Source of the DNA: Aggregatilineales bacterium
GTDB lineage: Bacteria > Chloroflexota > Anaerolineae > Aggregatilineales > Ch27
Direction of reading: 5' to 3'
NCBI GenBank assembly: GCA_029976025.1
Contig: JARKNX010000190.1
Span: forward strand, 1-64,000
DNA: 64,000 nucleotides
Positions 14,390 to 17,556 of this stretch are shown here, in pieces. The notes below the pieces were generated by a model that was not told the origin of the DNA, made no database searches, and saw nothing but the letters and a program-made list of their open reading frames with translations. The position numbers were made by a program, and so were the translations under genes. Every line of letters starts with the position of its first letter. Positions within the stretch are counted from its first letter, which is position 1.

Positions 14390-14632
14390 TGGTGGATGAG
14401 GATGAGGAGTGGGGGGTAAAGGAAAGGCGGCGAGTCGGGTGTGGTAACCAGAGGCCAGGGAGTTTAAACCCCTTGTTGGTCGCACAGTAGAGGGTGTCTT
14501 TACGGATTGAGTATGATGCGGCCGTCAGTAGAACTGCTGACGATCTTGGACGCAGTAGAGCGGTGTGATTTTATCAACAAAGTTATATACAACTGAGCGA
14601 CTATGATAAACGCAATAATTTGAGGCTGCTGC

Positions 14633-14851
14633 ATGAATATTGAGTTCTCTAAAGTACTGCATAGCTATCGTGGGCTTCCGCGGTCCAATGTTGTGCATCT
14701 ATCCCTTTTTCTGGCTGGTTTCTCAACAGTTTGTACTCAGACGCAGTTGTACAGCGGGATTTGGATGCATTTGTATATCAAGCAAGTATGCTTTTTAGGA
14801 GATCGCCGCTCGATTTTCGGCAGAATATTCTTTACACCAGAAGCAGTGTGA
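14633..14851 (+). CDS. Possible small protein, unidentified
   Basis: A 72-codon frame inside the island. GAGG seven bases before the ATG and a TATGAT at about 14602 give it some support. The product (MNIEFSKVLHSYRGLP at the start, one moderately hydrophobic stretch) matches nothing I know. In AT-rich DNA a frame of this size can occur by chance, so it is listed only as a possibility. Confidence 0.15.
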   Translation: MNIEFSKVLHSYRGLPRSNVVHLSLFLAGFSTVCTQTQLYSGIWMHLYIKQVCFLGDRRSIFGRIFFTPEAV

Positions 14852-14959
14852 ACCAGCCGCTGCGATATCACCGACTGTCCCCGTAGTTGAAACTGAGGCG
14901 TACCTACAACAAACTGTGCCTATTGAACCTGGTCTCCAAAACTCACTGTTTACTCTTAT

Positions 14960-15481
14960 TTAGCGATCATGTAGGGGGTGTCCAGAATGGATGAGAGATG
15001 CGTGATCCAAGCCTTTTTGTTGCTCGTTCCACGTCGCAATGACTATCGATCGAGGTTTTTCACCTTTTGTCCACCTGTATTCTAAAACATCATATCGGCT
15101 ATAGGTCTTGAGAAGTGCGCCTACATCTCTACTGACGCCTTGCGGAGAAAGAATGCAAGAGTAAAGCGGTAGTGCTACCCGGCTGTAACCCAACAGTTGC
15201 GAAATATCGCGTAGTCTCAGTGGCGTATTCTTGCACTCGACAAAGGCGAATTCAACCATATTCTCGGAGAATATGAATCCCGTGATATCAACCAGAATAT
15301 CATAAGTCAACCATTCTGGTTTATTGCTTGGGACAAGTCCAATATCCTGTAGTGTCATTTTGAGGGGGCGGCGACTTGTATCACGCACGACAATCTTTTT
15401 GCGCTTAAACCGTTCCCGCAGAAACACCTCAAGCCACGCCACTACTTCTGGATATAGATCGCTTTCGGTGGCATACGGCAT
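14960..15481 (-). CDS. Small PD-(D/E)XK endonuclease, candidate restriction cleavage subunit
   Basis: 173 residues. The core of a PD-(D/E)XK nuclease is readable: an N-terminal helix with Glu (ESDLYPEVVAWL), YDILVDITGF with candidate metal-binding Asp61/Asp65, FVECK (Glu82, Lys84) as the E-X-K half, and a following helix RDISQLLGYSRV whose Gln/Leu/Tyr pattern often completes this active site. The protein is barely larger than the fold, so it has little room for its own DNA-recognition domain. Its ATG lies two bases after the stop of the preceding gene, implying coupled translation in the operon 17300 to 14960. I infer it is the cutting subunit of a restriction-modification-like system. No family name is claimed. 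Confidence 0.7.
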   Translation of the reverse strand: MPYATESDLYPEVVAWLEVFLRERFKRKKIVVRDTSRRPLKMTLQDIGLVPSNKPEWLTYDILVDITGFIFSENMVEFAFVECKNTPLRLRDISQLLGYSRVALPLYSCILSPQGVSRDVGALLKTYSRYDVLEYRWTKGEKPRSIVIATWNEQQKGLDHASLIHSGHPLHDR

Positions 15482-15483
15482 AG

Positions 15484-16416
15484 CTAGGTTTCTTCAATGT
15501 CTTCATTAACAGCAGAAAATAATGGACCTGGCTCAGGTTCGATAACGCAGCCCATTGCCTTACAAATCTGCCAATACGCATCAAAATGTGTGCGGACAGG
15601 TTCAGGTAGGCGTTCAGAGTTTTCGTCCGGGTCTATGGGTTTCTTTCTCCTTAACCGTCTACGCCCCGGGCAGGGCTTGTAGTCAGCATTATTGTCTGCT
15701 TCCTGCTCTATAAGATGGTTTAAAACCTGCTGTTTATGCTCAAAAGAAAAACCAACCCGCTCGAATTGAGAAACGAAAATATTAATTTGATGCTCTCGCA
15801 AGTCACGTCCAAGGTTCGGATGTCCCCATGTAATATTTTGCACTGGAATATTCAGATGAATCTGTAATAATCGACAAAGTTGCACAGGAAGTTGCCAGTT
15901 GTCGTTGAGAACATCAAGTCGTACCCGGTTACGTCCATCAATGTACCGATTAGCACGACGAATATTTCCGGCAACGTCAGCATAGCCACGTATAAATTCC
16001 ATACGGATGTCAGTAGTAATCTCTGGGTGAAAAAGTATCTCTGGAACATTCATTACCCGGAAATTGGTTTTGTTTTCGAGATGAAGAGAGATATTGCGCC
16101 AACTCATCGTTCGCCGTGTCATAATCAAAACCATGTGTATATTGTTGTCTAGCCGATTGATCTTAATGTCGCAGTCCAAAAGCTCAAGTACGCGCTCCCG
16201 GATACGCCCTAGACCAAGCTCAATGCTTTGTGGAATATCAATCTGACGATGCCCACCTACTTCATCAATTTCGATATTGAGATTTTGATATGGGAATTCA
16301 ATAACAATCTCGCGCACACCTTGGTGTTCTATCAGTATACCGCGTGCCACAATCATGCCTAAGAGATAGGCAACATCCGGGTCTAAATAGTCATTCGCAA
16401 GAATAACTCCCGTCAT
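15484..16416 (-). CDS. LAGLIDADG-like DNA-binding protein lacking catalytic acids
   Basis: 310 residues, reading as two LAGLIDADG repeats. Motif 1 is AYLLGMIVARGIL (16-28) and motif 2 is FIRGYADVAGNI (141-152). The second repeat continues as family members do: a strand with RNRVRLDVL, helix PVQLCRLLQIHLNIPV, then REHQINIFVSQFERVGF. The penultimate acidic residue of each motif, which binds the catalytic metal, is replaced (Arg25, Ala149), so cleavage by this protein is unlikely. A basic stretch (GRRRLRRKKP, 251-260) leads to a C-terminal helical tail. It overlaps the methyltransferase by four bases (ATGA) and precedes the nuclease by two. I infer a sequence-recognition subunit. The fold call rests on motifs only. 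Confidence 0.6.
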   Translation of the reverse strand: MTGVILANDYLDPDVAYLLGMIVARGILIEHQGVREIVIEFPYQNLNIEIDEVGGHRQIDIPQSIELGLGRIRERVLELLDCDIKINRLDNNIHMVLIMTRRTMSWRNISLHLENKTNFRVMNVPEILFHPEITTDIRMEFIRGYADVAGNIRRANRYIDGRNRVRLDVLNDNWQLPVQLCRLLQIHLNIPVQNITWGHPNLGRDLREHQINIFVSQFERVGFSFEHKQQVLNHLIEQEADNNADYKPCPGRRRLRRKKPIDPDENSERLPEPVRTHFDAYWQICKAMGCVIEPEPGPLFSAVNEDIEET

Positions 16417-17300
16417 TTCCCCTCATACTTTCGTAACTTCGATGGTTTCTGGAAAATCAAAATATACTCATGGCACTTGTTAATACGAAATACGGATGGA
16501 TAGCCAAGGGGGCGCAAATTGTTATATTCATGCCGCCTGTCCCAGATAATGAGGTCATCGTAGATGAACCCGACATGCTCCATCATTTGAGCAACATCTG
16601 AATGAAACGGATAGAAAGAGTTTTTCTTTCGTAAATCCATGACCACAACAAAGCAATATTTTCCAGGGCGCATTACCTCATAGATCGGGCGGAATACCTC
16701 CGAAAGTTGGTCTATAAATCCGTGATAATCGCTAATTTTACCTAAGTCCTCAGTCGTATTACCGTAGTCGCGAATTTCTTTTCCGTCTGCTGTGCGCTTC
16801 TGTGTGAGAATATCCCAGTATGGCGGTGAAGTGATAACTATATCCACACTCTCAGGCTCAAGATACTTTCGGATGTGTCGGGCGTCGTCTTGATAAATTT
16901 TGCTTTCAGTATCAACTCCAGTCTGCCACAAATCATGCTGTCCAAGTCGCTGATTGGCCAGCGCAATATATTCGGAATTAATCTCAAAACCAAGACCAAC
17001 ACGCCCCATCCTTGACGCTGCAATAACAGTTGAACCGCTTCCGCAAAACGGATCAAGAACAATACGCTCATCACTTCGTGTAAAGCTCTCTATAATGCGA
17101 GTGACGAGTTGTGCGGGGAAAATGGCCGGATGGCCTAAATCCGCTTCCTGTTTGGTCTTGCGAATATCCGACCAAATGCTAATAGAATTACGCGTCCACG
17201 ATGCTCCGTCCAAATCGTTCGCACGTTTCCGGCTTTTTGCAGTTTCTTCTAGTGTCTCGCTTGGTTCTACTTCATTCCCAAGTAACGGTAACTGTTGCAA
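16413..17300 (-). CDS. Site-specific DNA methyltransferase (amino-methylating, N4-C or N6-A)
   Basis: 295 residues from a TTG at 17300, immediately preceded by an in-frame TAA with GGAG upstream. Motif X is HPAIFP (57-62), motif I (SAM binding) is DPFCGSGST (83-91), and motif IV (catalytic) is TSPPYW (157-162). SPPY is more typical of N4-cytosine than N6-adenine enzymes, but both occur. The order X-I-IV is permuted relative to the common beta-class order. The region after motif IV (about 163-285) should hold the target-recognition part. It leads the three-gene minus-strand operon and would protect host DNA from the cleavage proteins encoded behind it. Confidence 0.88.
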   Translation of the reverse strand: MQQLPLLGNEVEPSETLEETAKSRKRANDLDGASWTRNSISIWSDIRKTKQEADLGHPAIFPAQLVTRIIESFTRSDERIVLDPFCGSGSTVIAASRMGRVGLGFEINSEYIALANQRLGQHDLWQTGVDTESKIYQDDARHIRKYLEPESVDIVITSPPYWDILTQKRTADGKEIRDYGNTTEDLGKISDYHGFIDQLSEVFRPIYEVMRPGKYCFVVVMDLRKKNSFYPFHSDVAQMMEHVGFIYDDLIIWDRRHEYNNLRPLGYPSVFRINKCHEYILIFQKPSKLRKYEGK

Positions 17301-17338
17301 TTATCCGCTCCACTTCCTCATAACATTGAGAATTGTTA

Positions 17339-17344
17339 ATTATA
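17339..17344 (-). promoter_or_regulatory. Candidate -10 box of the R-M-like operon
   Basis: The complement of 17339-17344 reads TATAAT, 39 bases ahead of the TTG start. The -35 region is poor. A second TATAAT (complement of 17422-17427) directly abuts TTGACA (complement of 17429-17434), a spacing unsuited to a standard promoter. Confidence 0.3.
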
Positions 17345-17416
17345 TGAGCACTCAAGCGTTACCAGACAGGCTCTATTGTTCCCGAAATCTAGAATTATGC
17401 CACTCGCTACCGCTAT

Positions 17417-17556
17417 TTGATATTATACTGTCAATTTCATGCCCTGGCTCAGCTACAACTCAGGCTGAAAAAAGCAATTAGTGAACTTCTTGATCTAAAG
17501 ATCGGACAACTCGATCAGAAGATTAGGCAACTAAGAGTTTACAAACGATCTATCTC
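17417..17556 (+). pseudogene. Truncated coiled-coil reading frame at the island edge
   Basis: From ATG at 17417 the frame gives about 46 residues of regular amphipathic helix (LKKAISELLDLKIGQLDQKI) before running antisense into the GH20 gene. The helical part resembles small antitoxin-like or coiled-coil proteins and stops exactly where composition changes, as if cut by the insertion or a later deletion. A chance frame is the main alternative. Confidence 0.15.

Follow-up and report, generated by a model that had tools for sequence, protein, structure and literature searches.

Type II restriction enzymes have been described as relying mostly on PD-D/EXK, HNH and GIY-YIG catalytic sites, and the word LAGLIDADG is absent from the review of these enzymes that gives this account (PMC4081073). 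One of them, R.BspD6I, is a heterodimer of Type IIS/IIT with an asymmetric site: its small catalytic subunit has 186 amino acids, and its large subunit recognises the DNA and cuts one strand (PMC4081073). Concerning modification, two different methyltransferases are reported to indicate, as a rule, an asymmetric site (PMC12898733).

The operon studied here lies in a window of 64,000 nucleotides (the whole stretch of DNA that was analysed) and consists of three genes in the order DNA methyltransferase, LAGLIDADG protein and nuclease (Table 1). By analogy, R.BspD6I appears to be the closest known counterpart, since in this enzyme and in BstNBI a small separate PD-(D/E)XK catalytic subunit is also accompanied by a larger recognition protein. 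On the other hand, the recognition candidate of the operon has a LAGLIDADG fold devoid of catalytic acids, and no family link was found between it and its counterpart in BspD6I. A separation of the recognition module from the PD-(D/E)XK cleavage module is likewise seen in Type IIS enzymes such as FokI (Z 6.6 for 2fok and 8.0 for PaqCI against the nuclease model), and two methyltransferases for an asymmetric site are a further feature of Type IIS systems with a possible parallel in this family; however, in the 88 loci surveyed the modules are always two proteins, and the recognition module would be of the LAGLIDADG fold. With PI-PfuI, TliVMA, I-DmoI and PI-SceI the protein shares the fold and the single-chain layout of two repeats, but it differs from LAGLIDADG homing endonucleases in that both catalytic acids are missing in all readable relatives and in that its gene belongs to an operon, beside a methyltransferase and a nuclease, in 87 of the 88 loci. 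As in WhiA, the LAGLIDADG fold would here serve without cutting; unlike WhiA, the family has no recognised regulator domain in the matches listed and is linked to a nuclease and to methyltransferases.

In our opinion the operon is, with a probability of about 0.74, a Type II-like restriction-modification system in which a dead LAGLIDADG reader and a PD-(D/E)XK cutter make up the endonuclease as separate subunits. We also regard it as likely, in somewhat more cautious terms, that an undescribed family of restriction endonucleases is involved, in which a dead homing-endonuclease fold acts as specificity subunit, a separate PD-(D/E)XK protein cuts and the methyltransferase cassettes are exchangeable.

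Table 1. Features of the operon and of its surroundings in the window.
Feature	Position	Strand	Basis
Low-GC island holding the operon	14486..17554	.	Three genes 44-47% GC, flanking genes 69-70%
PD-(D/E)XK nuclease, 173 aa, proposed cleavage subunit; D65, E82-x-K84, Q95-x3-Y99	14960..15481	-	ORF, conservation, model
LAGLIDADG protein, 310 aa, single chain, probably catalytically dead, proposed DNA-recognition subunit	15484..16416	-	ORF, fold, family-wide acid loss
Motif 2 IRGYADVAG, residues 142-150; position 8 = Ala149, position 6 = Asp147	15967..15993	-	88 loci
Motif 1 LLGMIVARG, residues 18-26; position 8 = Arg25	16339..16365	-	N/R/K in 86/86 readable loci
N6/N4-type DNA methyltransferase, PF01555, 295 aa, TTG start, motif IV SPPY	16413..17300	-	Pfam E 2.2e-35

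The LAGLIDADG protein

The open reading frame of the LAGLIDADG protein is intact and begins with ATG. Its AlphaFold model (pLDDT 87.5, pTM 0.88) contains two alpha-beta-beta-alpha-beta-beta-alpha repeats, and the 50 PDB matches listed by Foldseek are LAGLIDADG homing endonucleases, inteins, one maturase and WhiA. In VIA-align the model was superimposed on PI-PfuI with a Z of 15.0 (rmsd 2.9 over 188 residues) and on WhiA with a Z of 13.3; the TliVMA intein, I-Tsp061I, PI-SceI and I-DmoI are among the other structural matches obtained with the two programs. On the basis of this model the protein is a two-repeat LAGLIDADG fold, which bears out the initial annotation in its reading of the two motifs as LAGLIDADG motifs.

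From the amino acid sequence alone, the link of the family to LAGLIDADG is weak. The Pfam search with the window protein gave no match, and among 60 relatives 11 matched Hom_end (best E 0.0039) and three matched LAGLIDADG_3 (best E 0.048). In an hhalign comparison Ala149 was placed opposite the catalytic Asp of 14 intein LAGLIDADG_3 segments, with a weak score (E 0.005, probability 7%). Sequence searches of the PDB with the LAGLIDADG protein and with the nuclease returned nothing or chance matches. The structure alignments, in which the window is row 1, leave out L001-L006, L021, L026, L029, L030, L077 and near-copies above 90% identity.

Loss of the catalytic acids

Position 8 of the LAGLIDADG motif is the catalytic acid. 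In the family this position is never acidic, neither in motif 1 (0 of 86 readable loci) nor in motif 2 (0 of 88): the residues found in motif 1 are Asn in 54 loci, Arg in 28 and Lys in four, two loci being unreadable, and those in motif 2 are Thr in 62, Ala in 23, and Asn, Gly and Ile in one each. Judging from these sequences, the absence of both catalytic acids is a family trait. A bias of the search at motif 2 was rejected as explanation: the motif-2 search pattern has no match in 63 of the 80 loci obtained from the species-genome collection, and these 63, found independently of it, are equally non-acidic.

Two other acids of the protein are conserved, Asp147 in 88 of 88 loci and Glu208 throughout the 60-row alignment of the LAGLIDADG protein; its C-terminal tail (residues about 250-290) is conserved as well. 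Of the 14 intein LAGLIDADG_3 segments, 13 have Asp at position 8, and position 6, that of Asp147, is variable, which makes Asp147 an unlikely candidate for the classical metal ligand; repeat 1, moreover, has no acid equivalent to it. The median dN/dS of 29 close pairs is 0.05 for the LAGLIDADG protein and 0.07 for the neighbouring nuclease, values that point to strong purifying selection on both (L021, L029, L030 and L077 were left out of this and of the distance test).

The initial annotation had proposed that both catalytic positions are replaced, by Arg25 and Ala149, and that the scaffold was preserved and the cut lost. The two replacements are confirmed in the window protein, the alignment of homologues that it called for yielded no member with an acid at either position, and the confident predicted fold, the family-wide loss of the acids and the purifying selection together support a kept scaffold with lost cutting residues. 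Binding of DNA by the protein would be the function retained.

A different LAGLIDADG frame of the genome to which the window belongs, an intein-like one on contig C97 (L110), retains both acids (LLGYFVADG and LAGYWAGDG).

The PD-(D/E)XK nuclease

The small nuclease gave no match in Pfam. Its model (pLDDT 93) shows little more than a nuclease core, which would leave hardly any space for a DNA-reading part, and the D...(D/E)-x-K triad of PD-(D/E)XK nucleases is found in it on the conserved fold. The PD-(D/E)XK pattern and a QxxxY element, with D65, E82, K84, Q95 and Y99, are invariant in the alignment of 66 nucleases; over the whole survey, D65 is present in 87 of 88 loci (one gap) and the other four residues in all 88. 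Restriction endonucleases and other PD-(D/E)XK nucleases dominate the list of structural matches, with BsaWI (Z 8.3), PaqCI (8.0), EcoT38I (7.7), NucC (7.5), the small subunit of R.BspD6I (2p14, 7.3) and the cleavage domain of FokI (2fok, 6.6), each of them a modest match when taken singly (best Z 8.3, best Foldseek E 5.5e-3).

The fixed pair of genes

In the window, the ATG of the LAGLIDADG gene overlaps the stop of the upstream methyltransferase gene, and the nuclease gene starts two bases past the LAGLIDADG stop. The survey behind the comparison comprises 88 loci, the window included, of which 79 are distinct at 98% identity and 65 at 90%. A single-sequence search of the species-genome contigs gave no confirmed relative; with an alignment of five members 112 were gathered there, of which 80 entered the survey and the other 32 stayed outside it. 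The remaining loci come from viral contigs, plasmids, phages and a single genome from the window's phylum. L001 is the window itself, L002 and L010 lie on one contig, and L003 and L006 share one protein.

Both the LAGLIDADG and the nuclease profile match, in neighbouring genes, in 88 of 88 loci. The two genes are on the same strand in 87, and with starts picked by script an overlap of stop and start is seen in 72 of 88. Searching in the opposite direction, viral loci seeded with the nuclease had an adjoining LAGLIDADG gene in four of four cases, two of which are contigs new to the survey. A scan of 247 genomes around a Bacteroidota seed with the nuclease profile gave no match beyond that seed; in 348 genomes around a Streptococcus seed, the matches were the seed and one weak fragment. 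Besides, the protein distances of the two partners are correlated over 73 loci with a Pearson coefficient of 0.94, which partly reflects shared descent.

Broken copies were observed at three loci: in the nuclease at L021, in the LAGLIDADG gene at L030, and in the methyltransferases, the LAGLIDADG gene and the nuclease at L077, from Streptobacillus notomytis. Since all frames of L077 are broken together, the module seems there to decay as a whole.

Some single loci depart from the common layout. At L026 (6924-7454), alone among the 88, the nuclease gene and the LAGLIDADG gene occupy opposite strands and converge. L011 (4342-4933) has a second nuclease copy, split in two pieces, upstream of the methyltransferase. 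The weak fragment mentioned above (L121) is a nuclease-like match of 58 residues with stops and with no LAGLIDADG gene nearby, either a remnant or a chance match.

Methyltransferase cassettes

In 87 of 88 loci, methyltransferase genes lie upstream in the same orientation, the exception, L029, beginning at a contig end; as in Type II restriction-modification systems, the methyltransferase gene thus stands beside the endonuclease gene in 87 of 88. L077 holds methyltransferase fragments only. In 62 loci the methyltransferases number two and belong to different classes, either fused or arranged in tandem, the cassettes being EcoRI-type m6A with C5 (32), N6 with SPPY type (18 + 4), C5 with N6 (5) and D12 with SPPY type (3). 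A single methyltransferase of the SPPY type occurs in 24 loci, which form the group of the window and belong to Chloroflexota, Poribacteria, several archaea and others; the locus L033 is truncated where its contig ends. No second DNA methyltransferase was found in this group among eight neighbour proteins from seven loci.

The SPPY motif is present in all 50 methyltransferases of the window's type. It is typical, not proof, of N4-cytosine methylation, and the solved relatives of this type include both N4-cytosine and N6-adenine enzymes.

On the LAGLIDADG tree (75 rows, excluding L029, L077 and copies within 5%, with group labels assigned by hand) the type of cassette changes at least six times, as estimated by a quick method that leaves many open forks. 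The LAGLIDADG-nuclease pair is therefore the constant part, and the protection genes are replaceable. The two-methyltransferase loci suggest an asymmetric target, to which a single-chain LAGLIDADG reader with two repeats would be well suited. The one methyltransferase of the window's group is by itself no argument for such a target: its members may have a symmetric site, or one mark may be enough.

Proposed mechanism and alternatives

According to the reading that we favour, the LAGLIDADG protein, with both of its own cutting sites dead, would bind a specific target sequence through its pseudo-symmetric beta-saddle; the PD-(D/E)XK protein would dock on it, forming a physical complex, and then cut the DNA, and the methyltransferase or methyltransferases would modify this site in the DNA of the host, so that methylation would block cleavage. 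Most likely, cutting has passed to the neighbouring PD-(D/E)XK protein within a restriction-modification operon, a context that the initial annotation does not consider. The members with two methyltransferases would probably have an asymmetric target.

A different division of labour would be a nuclease that is a complete restriction enzyme and finds its site alone, with the LAGLIDADG protein as regulator of the operon. LAGLIDADG regulators exist (WhiA is a transcription factor of this fold, and is among the structural matches with its Z of 13.3), C proteins control restriction operons, and small PD-(D/E)XK enzymes can act alone and recognise DNA, so specificity need not come from the LAGLIDADG protein. 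We nevertheless consider this reading rather improbable: the pair is always adjoining and mostly overlapping, with the nuclease after the LAGLIDADG gene, while the methyltransferases vary, and such a close tracking of the nuclease is unexpected for a controller. Besides, no helix-turn-helix family is among the matches listed (25 of 27 Pfam families, 60 LAGLIDADG members), and such a domain would be present in stray members at most. The single operon, and the overlap of the LAGLIDADG gene with the methyltransferase gene in the window, would also agree with a specificity subunit that serves the methyltransferase too, in the shared manner of Type I systems. This is quite unlikely, as methyltransferases of several classes, as large as enzymes that work alone, stand beside one LAGLIDADG family, and in a number of loci an intervening gene separates the methyltransferase from the LAGLIDADG gene.

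It could also be argued, from the invariance of Asp147 (88/88) and of Glu208 in the 60-row alignment, that the LAGLIDADG protein still nicks by means of Asp147 or another acid, which would give two different cutting subunits, as in Type IIT enzymes. However, position 6 is variable in the intein relatives that have Asp at position 8, and position 8 of repeat 1 is Arg, Lys or Asn, so that we give this proposal a very small chance. Finally, homing endonucleases decay by loss of catalytic residues; this being their usual route of decay, a decaying homing endonuclease could have come to lie in a restriction operon by chance. The median dN/dS of 0.05, the occurrence in many phyla and the co-localisation, seen in 88 of 88 loci, led us to reject this explanation, the probability of which is negligible.

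Novelty and implications

Of the window proteins, the methyltransferase alone is named by Pfam, NCBIfam and PADLOC. Neither the LAGLIDADG protein nor the nuclease is named by Pfam or PADLOC, in the window or among the relatives; no name was obtained either from NCBIfam for the window proteins or from PHROGs for the LAGLIDADG set. Scattered weak matches, among them PDC-S02/S03 and, once, PtuA (0.0007), were obtained from PADLOC with 66 nucleases and with 60 LAGLIDADG proteins, and from PHROGs with the latter; they were taken as chance. No LAGLIDADG restriction enzyme was found in the literature as judged by titles and abstract openings, and REBASE may hold an entry; there is none among the PDB structure matches listed, which proves nothing. 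The analysis suggests a restriction-modification system in which the type of recognition subunit is what is new.

If this is true, the fold of the LAGLIDADG homing endonucleases would be linked to restriction, and one route for the domestication of a selfish nuclease would be revealed. The enzyme would be naturally split into two proteins, whose reading and cutting parts could be studied separately, and it would be a natural counterpart of the engineered fusions between DNA-binding folds and nuclease domains. Where a locus has two methyltransferase genes, the target could be read directly by methylome sequencing of cultured carriers; Lactiplantibacillus plantarum, with plasmid p9, is one carrier in culture.

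Distribution and additional genes

The family is carried by Chloroflexota, Poribacteria, Bacillota, Bacteroidota, archaea, plasmids and phages, and it is rare: it was found in two of 400 genomes of the window's phylum, counting the one to which the window belongs, and in two of 341 genomes in one draw of Clostridia, one of them being the seed. The spread over phyla, plasmids and phages, together with the foreign base composition in the window, is typical of mobile restriction systems.

In 11 loci (L043, L049, L053, L054, L055, L057, L058, L060, L061, L080 and L084) one or two extra small open reading frames, of about 115-175 amino acids, are located between the methyltransferase and the LAGLIDADG gene. 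The two of L054 have no Pfam match; a motif scan revealed a W/Q..(E/Q)xR(I/L)Y element common to the small frames of the 11 loci. In the same place, L036 has an open reading frame of 353 amino acids with a NOV_C domain.
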